A stretch of 64,000 nucleotides of DNA from Acidobacteria bacterium Mor1 (GTDB lineage Bacteria; Acidobacteriota; Polarisedimenticolia; Polarisedimenticolales; Polarisedimenticolaceae): contig CP011806.1 in NCBI GenBank assembly GCA_001664505.1, positions 3,597,385 through 3,661,384 of the forward strand, in the 5' to 3' direction. The notes beneath the pieces are model-generated. The model worked only from the letters and a program-made list of their open reading frames with translations. It searched no databases and was not told where the DNA came from. Every line of letters begins with the position of its first letter. The stretch's first letter is position 1. Below, piece by piece: positions 3,903 to 21,377 of the stretch. A program made the position numbers and the translations under genes.

Positions 3903-4744
3903 GTACCGCCCTGAAACCTGCTTCCCAAGCTACCGGAACTTCGATCGCGATTACCGGTGGCAAGGGAGGTGTCGGCAAGAGCAACCTCACGGTCAACCTG
4001 GCCGTGGCCCTCGGACGCTGGGGGCGACGAGTGCTGTTGGTCGACGGCGATCTCGGCCTGGCCAACCTCGACGTGCTGTTGGGCCTGGTGCCCAAGCGCA
4101 ACGTCGAAGATCTGGTCCGCGGAGAGGCGACCCTCGAGGAGCTGCTGATCGACGGCCCCGACGGCGTACGCATTCTGCCCGCAGCATCGGGGGTGCCGGA
4201 TCTGTCGCGCCTCGACCAGATGGCTCGCTCGCGGCTGCTCGGCGCCCTGTCGGACACCGCATCGCTGGCCGATGACGTGCTGATCGATACCGGCGCCGGA
4301 CTCGGCGAGGCGACCCTGGCGCTCCAGCTGGCCGCCTCCCGGGTGCTGATCGTCACCACTCCCGAACCGACCTCGATGGTCGATGCCTACGCGACGCTGA
4401 AGGTGCTCTGGACCGCCGACGCGTCCAAGCCGGTCGACGTGGTGGTCAACGCCGCCGACAACGAAGAGACCGGACGCTGGGCCTACGAGCAGATCTCCCG
4501 GGCCGCCGAACACTTCCTCGGCCAGGTTCCCGGCTGGCTCGGCCCGGTGGTGCGCGACGAGAAAGTCGGCGAGGCGGTGCGCCGCCAGCAGGCGCTGCTC
4601 GAGCTGTTCCCCGGCAGCCAGGCCGGCCGTTGCTACCGCCAGATCGCCATGCAGTTGACCGCCGGTACCGACAGAGCCGCTGAAAGCTCCGATGACTTCT
4701 GGAGACGACTGATGGACCCGAGCAACAAGGAGTTGTCTCATTGA
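3899..4744 (+). CDS. flhG: Flagellar number regulator FlhG (MinD/ParA-like ATPase)
   Basis: The 281-residue protein is a MinD-like ATPase (FlhG/FleN/YlxH). It shows the deviant Walker A motif GGKGGVGKSNLTVNLA near residues 20-35, then LLVDGDLGLANLDVLLG, both typical of FlhG. It normally stimulates FlhF GTPase activity and limits flagellar number. The gene overlaps flhF by 4 bp upstream and fliA by 4 bp downstream (TTGA). The N-terminal activator-helix residues before the Walker motif are short, and their function was not judged here. Confidence 0.93.
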   Translation: MSTALKPASQATGTSIAITGGKGGVGKSNLTVNLAVALGRWGRRVLLVDGDLGLANLDVLLGLVPKRNVEDLVRGEATLEELLIDGPDGVRILPAASGVPDLSRLDQMARSRLLGALSDTASLADDVLIDTGAGLGEATLALQLAASRVLIVTTPEPTSMVDAYATLKVLWTADASKPVDVVVNAADNEETGRWAYEQISRAAEHFLGQVPGWLGPVVRDEKVGEAVRRQQALLELFPGSQAGRCYRQIAMQLTAGTDRAAESSDDFWRRLMDPSNKELSH

Positions 4745-5514
4745 GCACCCCGCAGAAACCCCTGCCCTGGACGCCCGAGGTACGCGATCCCGAATCGCGT
4801 GAGCGGGCGGACTTCGTCGAATCCCACGTCGACCTGGTGCGATTCCTGGCGGTGCGGATCTCGTCGCGGCTCCCGGCCAACGTCGACATCGACGACCTGA
4901 TCCACGACGGCATCGTGGGCTTGCTCGATGCGGCGGAGAAGTTCAATCCCGGCCGCGGCGTGCGCTTCCGCACCTACGCCGAGACCCGCATCCGCGGCGC
5001 GATCCTCGACGGCCTGCGTCAGAAGGATTGGCGGCCCCGTTCGGTGCGCATGCGCCAGCGGGACCTGGACCAGACCGTCGGATTGCTGGCGACCCTCAAC
5101 GGACGACCGGCAACCGAGGAAGAGGTGGCCAAGGCGATGGGCCTCGATCTGGCGAACTACCGCTCGCTGCTCGAAGGGCTCCACGTCGGGCCGTTGCTAT
5201 CCCTCGAGGACCTGGCCAACAGCGACCCGGTCACCACCGGGGACCGGGACATGCCCGACGCTCCCCTGGAGCAACGGGACCTGCTCGAAGCGATGGTCGA
5301 GGAGATCCAGGGGCTGCCCGAACGTGAACGCCGGATCCTCGAGCTCTACTACAACGAAGGGCTGACGATGAAGGAGATCGGCAATGCCCTCGGGGTCACC
5401 GAGTCCCGGGTCTGCCAGCTCCACTCCCAGGCCGCGTCTCGCCTACGCTCCGCGCTCTCGCCGCGGATCCACGCCACGCCGCTGCCCAAGACGGCGGCAC
5501 GAGGAGCGCGATGA
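4741..5514 (+). CDS. fliA: Flagellar RNA polymerase sigma factor FliA (sigma-28)
   Basis: The 257-residue product has the sigma-28 layout. Region 2 (around FVESHVDLVRFLAVRISSRLP and DLIHDGIVGLLDAAEKF) is followed by region 3 and by a region 4 helix-turn-helix near the C-terminus (LTMKEIGNALGVTESRVCQLHSQA). The start is TTG at 4741, overlapping the flhG stop by 4 bp; no better start lies nearby. It should transcribe the late flagellar genes. Four sequences in this window match its expected promoter, and its anti-sigma factor FlgM is encoded at 12816. Confidence 0.95.
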   Translation: MSTPQKPLPWTPEVRDPESRERADFVESHVDLVRFLAVRISSRLPANVDIDDLIHDGIVGLLDAAEKFNPGRGVRFRTYAETRIRGAILDGLRQKDWRPRSVRMRQRDLDQTVGLLATLNGRPATEEEVAKAMGLDLANYRSLLEGLHVGPLLSLEDLANSDPVTTGDRDMPDAPLEQRDLLEAMVEEIQGLPERERRILELYYNEGLTMKEIGNALGVTESRVCQLHSQAASRLRSALSPRIHATPLPKTAARGAR

Positions 5515-11848: not shown

Positions 11849-12813
11849 CGACGCTGGATCCGAACCTGATCGGCGGTCTGCACGTCGAGGCGACGCAGGG
11901 GGATGACCCTGCGGCGTTGCGCCGTTCCGCCGAGGCCTTCGAGTCGATGTTGCTCCAGACGATGCTGCGCGAGATGCGCGAGGCTCAACTGGAGAACGGC
12001 TTCTTCGGACAGAGCGCCGGCGCATCGATCTACGAGGGCATGTTCGAGACCAGCCTCTCGGAAGACCTGTCCAAGGGTTCCCCCCTCGGAATCGCCGATG
12101 CGCTGATGAAGGAGTGGCAGCGGGGACCGAAGGGAGAGGCAGCCCCCGCACCGGCGGAACTCGACGGCAAGATCCGCAAGCTGCGGGCCGGCCGACAGTA
12201 CGGCGCGGTGCTGGAAGCGAGCCGCGGCTCGGGAGCAGGGGTGGCCGCACCTCCGGCGGGCCCGGCGGCGAAGCCTGTGGCGAAACCGGTGGCCGCCGTG
12301 GCCCAGCCGGTCCGCTCCCCTGATGTTCACCGGCATGAGGTTCACCGGCATGATGCTCATCGGCATCACGTCCATCGGCACGACGGCGTCTCTTCGGACT
12401 TCGGTTGGCGCAAGGACCCGATCGACGGCACCCGGCGCTTCCATGCCGGCGTCGATCTTCCGGCGCCCACCGGCACCCCTGTGGTCAGCGTCGCCCCCGG
12501 CCGGGTCGTCGAAGCCGGCGAGGTCTCGGGCTACGGGCTCCAGGTCACCGTCGAGCACGCCGACGGCTGGACCTCACGCTATGCCCATCTCTCTTCTATA
12601 GAGGTGGCCCCTGGAGACCGGATTCCCAGGGGTGCCCATCTGGGCCAGGTCGGGAGCACCGGCCGTAGCACCGGTCCCCATCTTCACTTCGAAACCGCCC
12701 GTTTCGGCGAACCCGTGGATCCCGCAAAAGCCGCCCCGGGGCCGATCAGGCCTCAAGTCCTGGCCCCCCCTGCCGATAAATCTGGTGAACATAGGGCCCT
12801 TAGGGGGAATTGA
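11845..12813 (+). CDS. flgJ: FlgJ-type rod-capping protein fused to an M23 peptidase, with a His-rich linker
   Basis: The N-terminal ~100 residues match the FlgJ rod-binding domain (LRRSAEAFESMLLQTMLREMREAQLE). In enterobacterial FlgJ the C-terminus is a glucosaminidase. Here it is instead a LytM/M23 zinc peptidase: HAGVD near residue 200 supplies the first His/Asp ligands, and HLHFE near residue 277 supplies the third. The protein would cut peptide cross-links so the rod can cross the wall. Residues about 159-179 form a tandem His-rich repeat (VHRHEVHRHDAHRHHVHRHD), encoded by a 15-bp DNA repeat at 12324-12383. The start is GTG at 11845. A sigma-28-like promoter for flgM lies inside its 3' end. 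Confidence 0.88.
   Translation: MTTLDPNLIGGLHVEATQGDDPAALRRSAEAFESMLLQTMLREMREAQLENGFFGQSAGASIYEGMFETSLSEDLSKGSPLGIADALMKEWQRGPKGEAAPAPAELDGKIRKLRAGRQYGAVLEASRGSGAGVAAPPAGPAAKPVAKPVAAVAQPVRSPDVHRHEVHRHDAHRHHVHRHDGVSSDFGWRKDPIDGTRRFHAGVDLPAPTGTPVVSVAPGRVVEAGEVSGYGLQVTVEHADGWTSRYAHLSSIEVAPGDRIPRGAHLGQVGSTGRSTGPHLHFETARFGEPVDPAKAAPGPIRPQVLAPPADKSGEHRALRGN
12753..12779 (+). promoter_or_regulatory. Sigma-28 (FliA) promoter for flgM operon
   Basis: TCAA at 12753-12756, then exactly 15 bp, then GCCGATAA at 12772-12779. This matches the flagellar sigma-28 pattern TAAA-N15-GCCGATAA. It lies in the last codons of flgJ, 36 bp before the flgM ATG, so flgM-flgN-flgK-flgL-fliW can be raised late by FliA independently of the upstream operon. 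Confidence 0.8.
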
Positions 12814-12815
12814 CC

Positions 12816-13109
12816 ATGGGTATCGATAGAATTGACGGAATTAATGCTTCTAACCGGCCGACGGAGAACCCCTCCAAGGTCCGGTCGGAGCCCAGTGGCA
12901 AGCAGCCCGGCCGCCCCGGCGACCAGGTCGAACTCTCGGCGGAAGCCCGCCAGATCGCGACCCTGACCGGAGCCGCCAAGGACTTGCCCGAAGTCCGCGC
13001 CGAGAAGGTCAAGGCGATCCAGAAGTCCCTGGCCGACGGTACCTACAAGGTCGATTCGCGCCAGCTGGCGCAGAAGGTCCTGGAGTTCGAACGTGGTCTC
13101 GACTTCTGA
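12816..13109 (+). CDS. flgM: Anti-sigma-28 factor FlgM
   Basis: The 97-residue product has the FlgM pattern: a disordered polar N-terminus, then QVELSAEARQIATL and a C-terminal sigma-binding stretch ending VDSRQLAQKVLEFE. FlgM holds FliA inactive until it is exported through the finished hook-basal body. ATG at 12816 is chosen because AGGGGG at 12802-12807 lies 8 bp upstream; a TTG at 12810 overlapping the flgJ stop is an alternative. It is preceded by a FliA-type promoter, giving the usual negative feedback. Confidence 0.93.
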   Translation: MGIDRIDGINASNRPTENPSKVRSEPSGKQPGRPGDQVELSAEARQIATLTGAAKDLPEVRAEKVKAIQKSLADGTYKVDSRQLAQKVLEFERGLDF

Positions 13110-16668: not shown

Positions 16669-16953
16669 TCAGCGGCGCACGAATCGCAGGAAGACCCGGT
16701 ACTCGCCGGTCTCGATGCCCCGCGGCAAGGTGCCGGCGTCGGGCACCATCATCACCAGGACCCTGCCTGCCGGCGGATCCGGCTGGCGCTTGGCCCCGCG
16801 GCGTTCTTCCACCCTGGCGGGCGGGCCACCGGTCTGGCGGCGGGGCATGCGGATCGCGAGCAAGCGCGCTTCCACCCCGCCGGTACGCGAGATCTGTTTG
16901 TCCGCCTGCCCGGTAGCGGCCGTGGGCGCGGCGGTTCCGATGCGGATGTCCAT
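16669..16953 (-). CDS. Uncharacterised 94-aa protein, probable late flagellar gene
   Basis: The gene is encoded opposite to its neighbours, between csrA and motA. Start ATG at 16953 is preceded by GAGGT six bases upstream. Codons end almost uniformly in G or C, as in real genes here. A match to the sigma-28 promoter lies 27 bp upstream of the start on the same strand. The protein begins MDIRIGTAAPTAA, is basic and Pro-rich in the middle, and ends GEYRVFLRFVRR. No signal peptide or membrane span is visible and no family was recognised. Promoter and position suggest a motility role. Confidence 0.6.
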   Translation of the reverse strand: MDIRIGTAAPTAATGQADKQISRTGGVEARLLAIRMPRRQTGGPPARVEERRGAKRQPDPPAGRVLVMMVPDAGTLPRGIETGEYRVFLRFVRR

Positions 16954-16979: not shown

Positions 16980-17006
16980 TTATCGGCAGGATTTTGCCGC
17001 TCTTGA
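16980..17006 (-). promoter_or_regulatory. Sigma-28 promoter for the divergent 94-aa gene
   Basis: Read on the minus strand: TCAA (17006-17003), 15 bp, then GCCGATAA (16987-16980). This is a full match to the FliA -10 element at the right spacing. It stands back to back with the motA promoter, only 5 bp separating the two -35 elements. Confidence 0.75.
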
Positions 17007-17011
17007 ATCCC

Positions 17012-17038
17012 TAAACCCCGGCGCTTTCCTGCCGATAG
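17012..17038 (+). promoter_or_regulatory. Sigma-28 promoter for motA-motB-fliL
   Basis: TAAA at 17012-17015, 15 bp, GCCGATAG at 17031-17038. The expected transcript starts near 17046 and reaches the motA ATG at 17093. Motor stator genes are classic late flagellar genes, so the match is functionally sensible. Confidence 0.85.
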
Positions 17039-17092
17039 GGGCATCGGGAGCGGGGTGTATGCCGTTTCCCTCTTGTGGCCGGGAAGGGAGAT

Positions 17093-17869
17093 ATGGATCT
17101 AGCAACCGTAATCGGCTTGGTCTTGGGCGTGGGCCTGCTGCTGTTCGCGATCCTGCTCGGGGGATCGCTGGTGCTGTTCATCGATCCGATGTCGATGATC
17201 ATCGTCCTCGGCGGCACCATCGCGGCGACCATCATCCGCAACCCGCTCAACGAGCTGGGTGGCGTGATCAAGATCCTCCAGAAGACGTTTACCCACAAGC
17301 TGGAGTCCCCTTCCGAGATCATCGCCCAGGTGGTCGACATGTCCCGCAAAGCGCGGAAGGAGAGCCTGCTCTCCCTGGAGAAGGTCAAGATCGACGACGC
17401 GTTCCTGGCCAAGGGGGTCAACCTCTGCGTCGACGGTCTCGAGCCGGCGCAGATCCGCGGCATCATGGAGACCGACATCGGCGCCACGACCAAGCGCCAC
17501 AAGCAGGGCCAGACCGTGATTGAGAACGTCGGCGGCGCGGCTCCGGCATTCGGCATGATCGGAACCCTGATCGGCCTGGTGCAGATGCTCTCCAACATGT
17601 CCGATCCCCAGTCGATCGGTCCCGCCATGGCGGTCTGCATTCTGACCACCCTCTACGGGGCAATCGTGCAGAACCTGATCGCCAACCCGTTGGCCGACAA
17701 GCTGAAGCTGCGTAGCGCCCAGGAGATCGCCAACATGGTCGTTTGCCTCGAAGGGGTGCTGGGTATCGTGCAAGGAGAGCACCCGGCGTCGATCGAGGAA
17801 CGCCTCAAGGCCTTCCTGCCGCCCAAGCTCCGCGACGCGGAGAAGAAGGAAGAGAAGGCGGCGGCGTAG
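17093..17869 (+). CDS. motA: Flagellar stator protein MotA
   Basis: The 258-residue protein has four hydrophobic segments (about residues 4-22, 30-50, 150-170 and 180-200). Its cytoplasmic loop includes KARKESLLSLEKVKIDDAFL, as in MotA/PomA. MotA is the five-copy ring of the ion-driven stator. ATG at 17093 is preferred, with GGGAAGG at 17081-17087; a GTG at 17075 in the same frame is less likely. It is followed by motB and fliL. Confidence 0.93.
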   Translation: MDLATVIGLVLGVGLLLFAILLGGSLVLFIDPMSMIIVLGGTIAATIIRNPLNELGGVIKILQKTFTHKLESPSEIIAQVVDMSRKARKESLLSLEKVKIDDAFLAKGVNLCVDGLEPAQIRGIMETDIGATTKRHKQGQTVIENVGGAAPAFGMIGTLIGLVQMLSNMSDPQSIGPAMAVCILTTLYGAIVQNLIANPLADKLKLRSAQEIANMVVCLEGVLGIVQGEHPASIEERLKAFLPPKLRDAEKKEEKAAA

Positions 17870-17887: not shown

Positions 17888-18634
17888 ATGAAAGAAGAAT
17901 GCGAAGAGTGTAAACCGGGCGCACCCGAATGGATGGTGACCTTCGGCGACATGATGTCGCTGCTGCTGGCCTTCTTTGTGCTGCTGCTGTCGTTCTCGTC
18001 GATGGAGCTGGCCAAGTTCAAGGTCGTGGCCGGGTCGATGCGCGACGCCTTCGGTATCAGCAACGACTCGGCGATGAGCTCCGTCGAGATCGGCAGCGAA
18101 TCGCCGATGAAGAAGTCGGTGGAGCCCACTGCGGGCACCAACACCCTGATGGTGCTGCAGCAGATGCGCCAGGCCATCGAGAAATCGAACATGGACGACG
18201 CCGGCAACGTCAGCGTCGACGACCGCGGGGTCGTGCTGCAGCTCGACGGCGACGCCCTGTTCAAGACCGGCAAGGCGGAGCTACAGGAAAAGGCTCTGGT
18301 GCTGCTGGCCGAGGTGGCCAAGGTCGCCAAGTCCCAGGCGGGGAAGATGGAGGTCGAGGGGCACACCGACAACGTGCCGATTCGCAGCTCCCAGTTCCCC
18401 AGCAACTGGGAGCTTTCCAGCGCCCGCGCCGGCGCCGCGGCCCGCCATCTGGTCGACAACGGCCTGGCCACCACCCGGATCAAGGCCATCGGCTACGCCG
18501 ATACCCGTCCTCTGGAATCCAATGACACGCCCGAAGGCCGGGCCAAGAACCGCCGCATCGAGATCCTGTTCGTCGGGCCGACCGACGGAGACGAAGAGCC
18601 CGACGAAAGACGGACCGTCCTGTCCGACGGTTGA
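17888..18634 (+). CDS. motB: Flagellar stator protein MotB
   Basis: The protein has one N-terminal membrane segment containing the ion-binding aspartate (WMVTFGDMMSLLLAFFVLLL, near residue 23) and a C-terminal OmpA-like peptidoglycan-binding domain (VEGHTDNVPI, then WELSSARAGAAARHL). It anchors the stator to the wall. The 248-residue length is typical. It starts 18 bp after motA. The sequence does not settle whether it uses protons or sodium. Confidence 0.95.
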   Translation: MKEECEECKPGAPEWMVTFGDMMSLLLAFFVLLLSFSSMELAKFKVVAGSMRDAFGISNDSAMSSVEIGSESPMKKSVEPTAGTNTLMVLQQMRQAIEKSNMDDAGNVSVDDRGVVLQLDGDALFKTGKAELQEKALVLLAEVAKVAKSQAGKMEVEGHTDNVPIRSSQFPSNWELSSARAGAAARHLVDNGLATTRIKAIGYADTRPLESNDTPEGRAKNRRIEILFVGPTDGDEEPDERRTVLSDG

Positions 18635-18655: not shown

Positions 18656-19132
18656 ATGAACAAGAAGAAACTGATCATCATCATCGCGGCCGTCGTGGTC
18701 GTCCTGGGCGGCGGCGGCGCCGCGGCCTTCTTCGCCATGAGCGGCGGCGAAGAGGAAGAGCCGGTAGAGGTGGTGGAAGTCGAAGAGCCGCCGGGACTGA
18801 TGGAGCTCGATCCCTTCGTGGTCAACGTGACCGAGGGCAAGAAGGGGCGGATCGCCAAGCTCAACATCAGCCTGACCATCACCCCGGCCGAGGCGGTGAC
18901 CACCCTTTCCGAGGACAGCCTGCTGTTGGCGCGGATGCGCGATCGGACGCTGACGCTCCTTACCGCCAAGGCCTACGACGAGCTGGTCACTCCGCTGGGT
19001 AAGGAGAGCCTGCGCCGGGAGCTCAAGGCGCGGCTGGGTCCGCTGGTCGAAGCGGCGGTCGACACCGAAGCCAAGGAGCCGGTGGTCCCCGAGATCAAGG
19101 ACGTCCTGTTCTCCGAGTTCATGGTCCAGTAG
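18656..19132 (+). CDS. fliL: Flagellar basal-body-associated protein FliL
   Basis: The 158-residue protein has a short basic N-terminus, one membrane span (IIIIAAVVVVLGGGGAAAFF), an acidic linker and a periplasmic domain (LMELDPFVVNVTEGKKGRIAK) that ends in the conserved C-terminal VLFSEFMVQ. FliL forms a ring around the stator and supports torque. It closes the motA-motB-fliL operon and faces a convergent operon across a hairpin. Confidence 0.92.
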   Translation: MNKKKLIIIIAAVVVVLGGGGAAAFFAMSGGEEEEPVEVVEVEEPPGLMELDPFVVNVTEGKKGRIAKLNISLTITPAEAVTTLSEDSLLLARMRDRTLTLLTAKAYDELVTPLGKESLRRELKARLGPLVEAAVDTEAKEPVVPEIKDVLFSEFMVQ

Positions 19133-19239: not shown

Positions 19240-19908
19240 TCACTGCCCCCGGCTATCCGAGACGCGGTCGCTCTGTTCGGGATAGTGCTCCTGGAGACAT
19301 TCCCCGCAGAGCGAATGGCTGAACATCACATCCGAATGGTTGGAGATGTAGCTCTCGAGCTTGTGCCAGGTATCCGAATCGTCGCGGATACTCTTGCAGT
19401 GCATGCAGATCGGAAGCAATCCCTGCAGCTTCTTGACGTGATCGAGAGCCTCCTGCAGCTCCCCGATCTTCCCAGCCAGCTGATTCTGTAGCTCGATGAT
19501 GCGCTGTCCCGTGTGGATGCGCGCCGCCAGCTCCTTGGTGTCGCAGGGTTTGACCATGTAGTCGTCGGCGCCGGACTCGAGGCCCAGCACCACGTCATCC
19601 TTGGCCTCCCGGCTCGTCAACATGATCACGTAGATGTAGTGGCCGAACAGGGACTGCTCTTCCCGCAGGCGGCGGCAGATCTCGATACCGTCGACCCCCG
19701 GCATCATCCAGTCGAGGATCGCGATGTGTGGAGCGTGGTCGACGATCGCGTTCCAGGCCGCCTCTCCATCCTCGGTGACCACGACCTCGTGGCCCATGCG
19801 GTCGAGCACCTTCTCGAGCAACAGTCGGGGCACGCCGCTATCGTCGGCGATCACGATGCGCAGCGGATGCTGCCCCTCGGCGCGCGGTGCCGTGCTCGGT
19901 TGCTTCAT
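19240..19908 (-). CDS. Response regulator with C-terminal Cys4 module
   Basis: The 222-residue protein starts at ATG 19908, overlapping the GTPase stop by 4 bp. The receiver domain has the acidic pair D22/D23, phospho-acceptor D66 (AILDWMMPG), T98 and K120. A coiled-coil stretch follows (about residues 133-162). The protein ends in GLLPICMHCKSIRDD and FSHSLCGECLQEHYP, giving C168, C171, C201 and C204. That tail is a recurrent module at the ends of some bacterial kinases and regulators, and the Cys pattern suggests metal binding. No DNA-binding or enzyme domain is present, so it may signal by protein contact. Confidence 0.88.
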   Translation of the reverse strand: MKQPSTAPRAEGQHPLRIVIADDSGVPRLLLEKVLDRMGHEVVVTEDGEAAWNAIVDHAPHIAILDWMMPGVDGIEICRRLREEQSLFGHYIYVIMLTSREAKDDVVLGLESGADDYMVKPCDTKELAARIHTGQRIIELQNQLAGKIGELQEALDHVKKLQGLLPICMHCKSIRDDSDTWHKLESYISNHSDVMFSHSLCGECLQEHYPEQSDRVSDSRGQ

Positions 19909-21305
19909 CGGGCGGCCGTCGCGGGTTTCTTGGCGGCGGCCGCGAGCTTGCGACGCAGCGCACGCCAGTGAAGGGACAGCCCGAAGAAGCGGGCCACCGA
20001 GTCCCAGAACTGTTGCTCGACCTCGTCGAATCCCGATTCGGCGATTCGCGCGTAGATCACGATGCTGCCGAAGGCCAGACCGTCGCAGGCCAGGGGCACC
20101 AGGTAGGCCGAGGCGAGTTGCTCCGCTCCCGGCGGCGCCGCGCCGAAGAAGACCTCGGTATCGAGATCCTCGACCAACTTGGCCTTTCCGGGCCGGCTCA
20201 TCCGGTACGCCGTGCTCCCCAGGTTCTCCGCCACAGTGGCGTTGAGGGGGTCGGCCCCCCCCGGGCAAACATCCCGCTCTTCCATCGACGTGCTCTTCGG
20301 AGCGAACAGCAGGATCGACCCGTGGGTGCGGGAGGTGTATTCCAGCAGGGTCTTGAGGGTATCCGGCGGAACCGGAGCCGCCGCCGGGTCGGTCAGCACC
20401 GGGGCGAGCCAGGCCAGGCCTTCCATCAGCCGGCCGCGCCGTTCGTTGATCGCGTGGACGCTCTTCAGGTCGTCGATGCGCTCGGCGAGCTTCATCCCGC
20501 TCTGAACCGCCTCGCGGAGCAGGCTCTCCTGATCCATGATGCGGCGGTCGCGGCCCTCCTCGGCCCACTTCTCCCGGTAGGCATCCATATCCACCCGGTG
20601 CTCGAACTGGCCGGCGGTGGGAGCGGAACTGCCGGGAATCGCCGGAGCCCGTTCCTGGGCCTGGGCCAGCGCCTGATCGACGGTCTTGTCGATGAACTCC
20701 TGGGAGAGATTCGACTTGCCCGCCTTGGCGTAGACCGCGGCGATAGCGCCCTTGAGCGCAGCACCGAAGGTCTCGATCACCCCGGCGCCACTGTTGGCGA
20801 CCGCCTCGAAGTTCGGGCGGTTGGCCAGGTTCAGTTCCTTGTTCAGGTCGACCACCCGGCGGGCGTTGGGAAGATCTCGCTTGTTCCACTGCAGGACCAC
20901 CGTGGTGGTGTTCGGATCCAGGCCGTTCTGGACCAGGTTCTCCTGCATGTTCTGCTCGGCCCAGGCGTTGTTCTTGGCCGCCTCGGGGGAGCTGTCGACC
21001 ACCAGCACCACCGCGTCCGCGCCGCCGAGCACCTGGCGACGGGTCGTCTCGTAGTGCACCTGGCCGGGCACGGTGTAGACCTTCGCCCGCACCGACAGCC
21101 CGCCGATCCGGCCGAGATCCATCGGCAGCAGATCGAAGAAGAGGGTCCGGTCGTCCTGGGTGGCGATCGACACCAGGCCCTGCTCGTCGTTGGGGTCGGT
21201 CAGCCGGTGAAGGGTCGCCAGGTTGGTCGTCTTACCGCCCATGGCGCAGCCGTAGTAGACCACCTTGAGAGTGACGACCTTGTTGGCAGCATCGATGACA
21301 GCCAC
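19905..21305 (-). CDS. MglA-type small GTPase fused to a GAF domain
   Basis: The 466-residue protein starts at GTG 21305, with AGGAAG six bases upstream. Residues 1-200 are an MglA-family GTPase: P-loop GCAMGGKT (19-26), the MglA-type TVPGQVHY (78-85) and the base-specificity motif NKRD (141-144). After a linker of about 70 residues and a short helix comes a GAF-like sensory domain (about 300-450). MglA proteins set cell polarity in gliding and twitching. Here the gene is coupled to a response regulator and preceded by a match to the flagellar sigma-28 promoter. It may therefore act in flagellar placement or chemosensory polarity. Confidence 0.87.
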   Translation of the reverse strand: MAVIDAANKVVTLKVVYYGCAMGGKTTNLATLHRLTDPNDEQGLVSIATQDDRTLFFDLLPMDLGRIGGLSVRAKVYTVPGQVHYETTRRQVLGGADAVVLVVDSSPEAAKNNAWAEQNMQENLVQNGLDPNTTTVVLQWNKRDLPNARRVVDLNKELNLANRPNFEAVANSGAGVIETFGAALKGAIAAVYAKAGKSNLSQEFIDKTVDQALAQAQERAPAIPGSSAPTAGQFEHRVDMDAYREKWAEEGRDRRIMDQESLLREAVQSGMKLAERIDDLKSVHAINERRGRLMEGLAWLAPVLTDPAAAPVPPDTLKTLLEYTSRTHGSILLFAPKSTSMEERDVCPGGADPLNATVAENLGSTAYRMSRPGKAKLVEDLDTEVFFGAAPPGAEQLASAYLVPLACDGLAFGSIVIYARIAESGFDEVEQQFWDSVARFFGLSLHWRALRRKLAAAAKKPATAAR

Positions 21306-21350
21306 GAGTTGCTTCCTGCTCTTGGGAGAAACGCCCCCCCGGGACCCTGT

Positions 21351-21377
21351 CTATCGGCAGCGCGGGGGATTTATTTA
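21351..21377 (-). promoter_or_regulatory. Sigma-28 promoter for the GTPase/response-regulator operon
   Basis: On the minus strand, TAAA (21377-21374), 15 bp, then GCCGATAG (21358-21351). This -10 element is identical to that of motA. The expected start lies about 40 bp before the GTPase start codon. It ties the operon to the late flagellar regulon. Confidence 0.8.

Follow-up and report, generated by a model that had tools for sequence, protein, structure and literature searches.

A GAF-fused MglA-type GTPase as a predicted member of the late flagellar regulon in some Acidobacteriota

MglA-type GTPases are known regulators of surface motility. What, then, is a gene for such a GTPase doing within a cluster of flagellar genes, behind what resembles a flagellar promoter? 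The stretch of DNA analyzed here ("the window," 64,000 nucleotides) belongs to a complete genome of 5.985 Mb (G000) and comprises most of one large flagellar cluster, which spans 55 kb in that genome and runs flhB-flhA-flhF-flhG-fliA, then fliM- and fliN-like genes, followed by flgF-G-A-H-I-J-M-N-K-L, fliW, csrA, and motA-motB-fliL. Convergent with motA-motB-fliL lies an operon of the GTPase gene, which we call mglA-GAF, and a receiver gene. The genes that matter to the argument are the following.

4741..5514, plus strand: fliA, flagellar sigma-28 factor (Sigma70_r2 and r4 domains), between flhG and the fliM-like gene
12816..13109, plus strand: flgM, anti-sigma-28 factor (FlgM, E 2.2e-17)
16669..16953, minus strand: gene of 94 aa, function unassigned, divergent from motA and kept in the class
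17075..17869, plus strand: motA (MotA_ExbB, E 4.4e-27)
17888..18634, plus strand: motB (OmpA, E 2.3e-20; MotB_plug, E 4.1e-19)
18656..19132, plus strand: fliL, convergent with the receiver gene (FliL, E 2.5e-17)
19240..19908, minus strand: receiver (response-regulator) protein with a Cys4 tail, 222 aa (receiver domain, E 7e-25)
19905..21305, minus strand: mglA-GAF, an MglA-type GTPase with a helical linker and a GAF domain, 466 aa, GTG start (open reading frame, motifs, structure matches, domain search)

The original prediction recognized MglA hallmarks and a GAF domain in the GTPase, and both hold. Residues 4–191 align without shift to Myxococcus and Thermus MglA (5ymx, 6h17, 6hjh, and 3t12; E 1e-42 to 1e-45), the best matches among solved structures. 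The P-loop GxxxxGKT (residues 19–26), R53, TVPGQ (G3, 78–82), and NKRD (G4, 141–144) are all present, with the arginine finger R53 adjoining the G2 threonine T54, and the catalytic residues of the G domain, R53 included, are invariant in seven aligned MglA-GAF proteins. By this conservation, the catalytic residues are intact, and GTP binding and hydrolysis are predicted. Domain matches across the family identify the C-terminal part as a divergent GAF domain: GAF_2 is found in five of seven members, the G000 protein itself falling under the Pfam cut-off. The AlphaFold model (12 rows) is good over the G domain, while most of the GAF region has a pLDDT below 50; the model is trustworthy for the G domain only.

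20733..21305, minus strand: MglA G domain, residues 1–191 (colinear with solved MglA; residues invariant in seven relatives)
19977..20357, minus strand: GAF domain, residues 317–443 (GAF_2, E 0.0055 here and 1.2e-7 best among relatives)

The link to flagella was first seen in a sigma-28-type site upstream of mglA-GAF, said to lie on the right strand and to share its -10 with motA. This is confirmed: TAAA-N15-GCCGATAG stands on the coding strand with its end 45 nt 5' of the start codon, and GCCGATAG occurs at both genes.

12753..12778, plus strand: sigma-28-like site of flgM, TCAAGTCC-N11-GCCGATA
16981..17006, minus strand: sigma-28-like site of the 94-aa gene, TCAAGAGC-N11-GCCGATA
17012..17038, plus strand: sigma-28-like promoter of motA, TAAACCCC-N11-GCCGATAG (pattern search)
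21351..21377, minus strand: sigma-28-like promoter of mglA-GAF, TAAATAAATCCCCCGCGCTGCCGATAG = TAAATAAA-N11-GCCGATAG (outscores each of the 306 control upstream regions)

The pattern TAAA-N14-16-GCCGATA occurs twice in the window, before mglA-GAF and before motA, versus 0.00 expected from 100 shuffles, and six times in the 6-Mb G000 genome versus zero for the reversed control pattern. Within ~84 kb of the G000 chromosome, similar sites precede flgM, motA, the 94-aa gene, and a pilZ gene that itself precedes flagellin (GCCGATG), and flagellin has an ACCGATA variant upstream. With such sites recurring upstream of several flagellar genes, flgM and motA included, mglA-GAF looks like a gene under a late flagellar promoter, as had been proposed. 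The 94-aa gene, which has no Pfam match and its own sigma-28-like site, has relatives at the same place in G011, G018, and G027, as well as in G004 by eye, and resembles an undescribed late flagellar protein. An exact sigma-28-like site also stands before a receiver-HD_5 (HD-GYP-like) gene (L053 4280-5531, minus strand; G000:C1 about 1.8955 Mb), a possible further member of the regulon.

The promoter link extends to relatives: mglA-GAF is preceded by such a site in one more genus of the family, and the same holds for several genomes that belong to a different family. In G004, sites precede flgM, flagellin, and motA (TCAACTTC-N11-GCCGATAG), and the one before mglA-GAF is weaker (TCAACTTC-N11-GTCGATGA). 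Three genomes of family f5 have the flgM promoter TCAAG-N14-GCCGAWRA, and G011 has TCAAGTCGCGGCCCCTCCGGCCGAGGA before mglA-GAF versus TCAAGTCGCACCCCTTCCGGCCGAAGA before flgM. A sigma-28 matrix was built from twelve flagellar sites without any mglA site, and nine mglA-GAF upstream regions were scored with it; 306 upstream regions free of pattern-chosen loci served as controls. Five of the nine (G000, G004, G011, G025, and G027) scored above every control; G018 (p 0.02), G023 (0.05), and G037 (0.05) were weak, and the matrix revealed no convincing site in G029 (0.20). Because the f5 mglA-GAF genes are not beside flagellar genes, a shared neighborhood does not explain their sites. That mglA-GAF belongs to the late flagellar (sigma-28) regulon is well supported by these genome comparisons and is our best-supported statement; from it, we infer that expression in the cell would depend on FliA.

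The distribution of the gene points the same way. Among the 10 genomes of the window's order, FlhA is present in exactly three, the same three that carry mglA-GAF (3/3 versus 0/7). The class holds 41 genomes, 14 FlhA-positive and 20 FlhA-negative, with seven that gave no FlhA result left out, and mglA-GAF occurs in 10 of the 14 versus none of the 20 (Fisher p 7.6e-6, a value inflated by uncorrected kinship). One of the seven left out, G031, has an incomplete match, 33% identical. G003, from the same family as G000, has neither flagella nor the GTPase, and both cluster-flanking gene sets are kept on one contig. Co-inheritance of mglA-GAF and flagella is well supported across these genomes. Flagella can nevertheless work without mglA-GAF, because four FlhA-positive f5 genomes (G021, G033, G035, and G039) have none. 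The phylum-wide search at E 1e-85 was too strict for f5-like members, and for this reason restriction of the mglA-GAF form to one class is not proven.

Two further observations concern the flagellar cluster and the wider family. In G003, the genes flanking the flagellar cluster of G000 lie a few kb apart (L197 511-17228), the pattern expected if the entire cluster had either been deleted or had never been acquired. A flagellar link for the wider MglA family was rejected: 79 of 80 loci from named genomes showed no flagellar cluster, and L056 (its genome being G004) alone combined a full-length relative with a motAB neighborhood.

A tree of 112 MglA G domains places the ten G-GAF proteins, three from the window's order (G000, G004, and G008) and seven from family f5, which belongs to the same class, in one clade (support 99/91). 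Around it branch histidine kinases of ~700 aa with the order MglA-GAF-HisKA-HATPase, several with an adjacent receiver gene. Since these kinases are the nearest relatives of the clade, the flagellar form probably arose by loss of the kinase part from an MglA-GAF-histidine kinase; the branching order is likely rather than certain, because the neighboring forks carry supports of 91/82 and 99/88 together with a long-branch warning. G000 itself encodes such a kinase (L050 5305-7395, minus strand; G000:C1 about 1.288-1.290 Mb), and further loci are L017, L018, L019, L020, L021, L023, L026, L028, and L029. The phylum is taken to be Acidobacteriota, and in this tree the MglA of a genome assigned to the same phylum, G042, groups with Acidobacteria records.

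In all three flagellated genomes of the order, which represent three genera, mglA-GAF adjoins motAB, each time in a different arrangement: convergent with motAB in G000, upstream of and co-oriented with motAB in G004, and, in G008, downstream of the sole MotB-type stator gene detected there, at a distance of 24 nt. In the G008 contig, positions 1 to about 2255 (GC 0.59) are probably misjoined to the 0.70-GC part with motA-motB-mglA-GAF, and motA is cut there; the motB-mglA-GAF part agrees in GC with its genome. In the f5 loci, mglA-GAF lies next to dnaJ/cbpA and not motAB.

The receiver probably has a different history. Its coupling to the GTPase by a 4-bp overlap and its Cys4 tail, both claimed from the start, are evident: the two genes are joined by ATGA, and the tail carries two CxxC pairs (C168/C171 and C201/C204).

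19273..19416, minus strand: Cys4 tail, residues 165–212, CxxC-N29-CxxC, no Pfam family

The notion of the two genes as a conserved unit does not stand. The receiver's orthologues, 58% in G004 and 55% in G003, which has no flagella, each lie beside a large kinase-type protein, a hybrid histidine kinase (PAS-HisKA-HATPase-receiver-Hpt in G004), near trmFO-xerC, a pair that follows in the window as well. No Cys4-tailed receiver gene was found next to mglA-GAF in the f5 loci covered, in G004, or in G008. Of the motility context that the original prediction expected of the pair in other genomes, the part concerning the GTPase survives, for it adjoins motAB on its own in G004 and G008, and the part concerning the receiver falls, as it is absent there. 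Homologous pairs lacking a motility context, which had been named as evidence against the idea, do not apply as worded, because no homologous pair was found elsewhere. At this place in G000, there is no hybrid kinase, and mglA-GAF stands there instead. From this gene order, the receiver was probably at this place before the GTPase and came to be co-translated with it in G000.

The Cys4 tail (LLPICxxCKxIRDD...SHxLCxEC) also ends several unrelated proteins in these genomes (L180, L182, L183, and L178) and is possibly an unnamed zinc-binding module; a literature search for the motif gave nothing. Behind the receiver orthologue of G004 come csrA and a second copy each of fliA and flhG, away from the main flagellar cluster (L196 8651-11486).

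The whole is best explained, with an even chance of being right, if mglA-GAF encodes a dedicated flagellar GTPase switch that descends from a histidine kinase, is expressed by sigma-28, and acts on the stator. Loss of the kinase from an MglA-GAF-histidine kinase would have turned the output from phosphotransfer to the GTP/GDP state. Sigma-28 would transcribe mglA-GAF together with stator and filament genes, so that the protein would appear only late, after hook completion. A small ligand bound by the GAF domain probably controls the nucleotide state, and the GTP form would probably bind the motor of the flagellum, with the cytoplasmic portion of MotA as the likeliest site, where it would set the engagement, place, or number of stators, comparable to the action of MglA on AglR in Myxococcus. 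In G000, the receiver, apparently taken from another two-component system and now co-translated, may add a phosphorylation input. We prefer stator control because stator genes are the recurrent neighbors and because Myxococcus MglA binds a gliding motor homologous to MotA/MotB; by this analogy, the stator, and MotA in particular, is the putative molecular target. The specific claim that a Ras-like GTPase attaches to the flagellar stator and controls stator engagement according to a GAF-sensed ligand, as a flagellar counterpart of MglA-AglR, is a tentative one that we consider rather doubtful; if it is true, MglA would have been coupled to stators before gliding arose or independently of it.

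Cell polarity in Myxococcus and Bdellovibrio is governed by MglA proteins (PMC4316618, PMC3983030), and with flhF and flhG in the same cluster, MglA-GAF could instead mark the pole at which the flagellum is built or maintained, together with FlhF and FlhG, in line with the polarity link of the original prediction. FlhF and FlhG are already present, however, a sigma-28 promoter would deliver the protein after placement of the basal body, and the recurrent neighbors are stator genes rather than flhFG, all of which makes a polarity determinant unlikely. More unlikely still is a role in coordinating swimming with a surface machine such as type IV pili, the protein being expressed with the late flagellar genes and acting on pilus motors. 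Such a role would fit G008, where mglA-GAF is followed by a PilB/MshE-type ATPase gene (L037 4964-6949) with its own sigma-28-like sequence of the TCAAGTTC-N11-GAGCCGATA type (TCAAGTTCTGGCTCTCCGAGCCGATA) 37 nt upstream, a site that possibly links pili to the flagellar regulon. It would also fit G004, with pilin-like genes and a PilZ gene divergently upstream of mglA-GAF, and Myxococcus, where MglA activates pili through SgmX (PMC7519303). Yet no pilus genes adjoin mglA-GAF in G000 or in the f5 loci, and a separate MglA accompanied by MglB exists in these genomes. Finally, the gene might be an orphan passenger without a motility role that came to lie in or near flagellar clusters by accident, its promoter match due to chance or to read-out of neighbors, as the f5 copies next to dnaJ/cbpA, the flagellated genomes that do without it, and the kinship-inflated co-occurrence test would allow, but sigma-28-like sites even away from flagellar genes, three different motAB arrangements in three genera, and intact catalytic residues render this highly improbable.

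The preferred reading, a stator-acting GTPase switch, suggests from genome sequence an undescribed way of controlling swimming in some Acidobacteriota, and the GTPase-to-motor link of Myxococcus gliding may exist in swimming bacteria too. The literature searched contained no paper tying MglA to the flagellar regulon, FliA, or flagellar stators, which is weak evidence of novelty because most subscription papers lay outside its coverage. The finding also points to multidomain MglA forms, including the MglA-GAF-histidine kinases, that are missing from the 2014 MglA survey because of its length cut-off: the survey covered single-domain small GTPases of at most 240 aa and excluded longer proteins.

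How does mglA-GAF compare with the MglA systems already known? Among the criteria for group 1 of the MglA family is an intrinsic arginine next to the G2 threonine (PMC4316618). The protein has the intrinsic arginine, TVPGQ in G3, and NKxD in G4 of this group, and its 466 aa with a GAF domain exceed the limit of 240 aa. It resembles group-1 MglA of Myxococcus xanthus, Thermus thermophilus, and Bdellovibrio in its colinear G domain, TVPGQ, intrinsic R53, and NKRD, but differs in its fusion to GAF, in its length (466 rather than <240 aa), in its flagellar promoter and motAB context, and in having no adjacent MglB gene. No mglB was found near mglA-GAF, the sole Robl_LC7 match in G000 lying ~1 Mb off beside another MglA. 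The MglA-GAF-histidine kinases of Acidobacteriota (~700 aa, frequently next to a receiver gene) share the G-GAF order and are nearest in the tree, whereas the flagellar clade stops after GAF, without HisKA and HATPase. RomR and similar proteins are, like the G000 receiver, receiver proteins tied to an MglA, in G000 through a co-translated operon (PMC4316618); the comparison covers the receiver domain, and the G000 protein has a Cys4 tail and orthologues that pair with a PAS-kinase-receiver-Hpt protein. A further parallel is the AglR/Q/S gliding motor of Myxococcus, whose components are MotA/MotB homologues and where, according to a review, MglA directly binds the MotA-homologous AglR (PMC9120999). 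In both cases, an MglA-type GTPase is associated with a proton-driven motor of the MotAB type; the link of mglA-GAF is known from genomes alone, and it concerns the true flagellar motAB.
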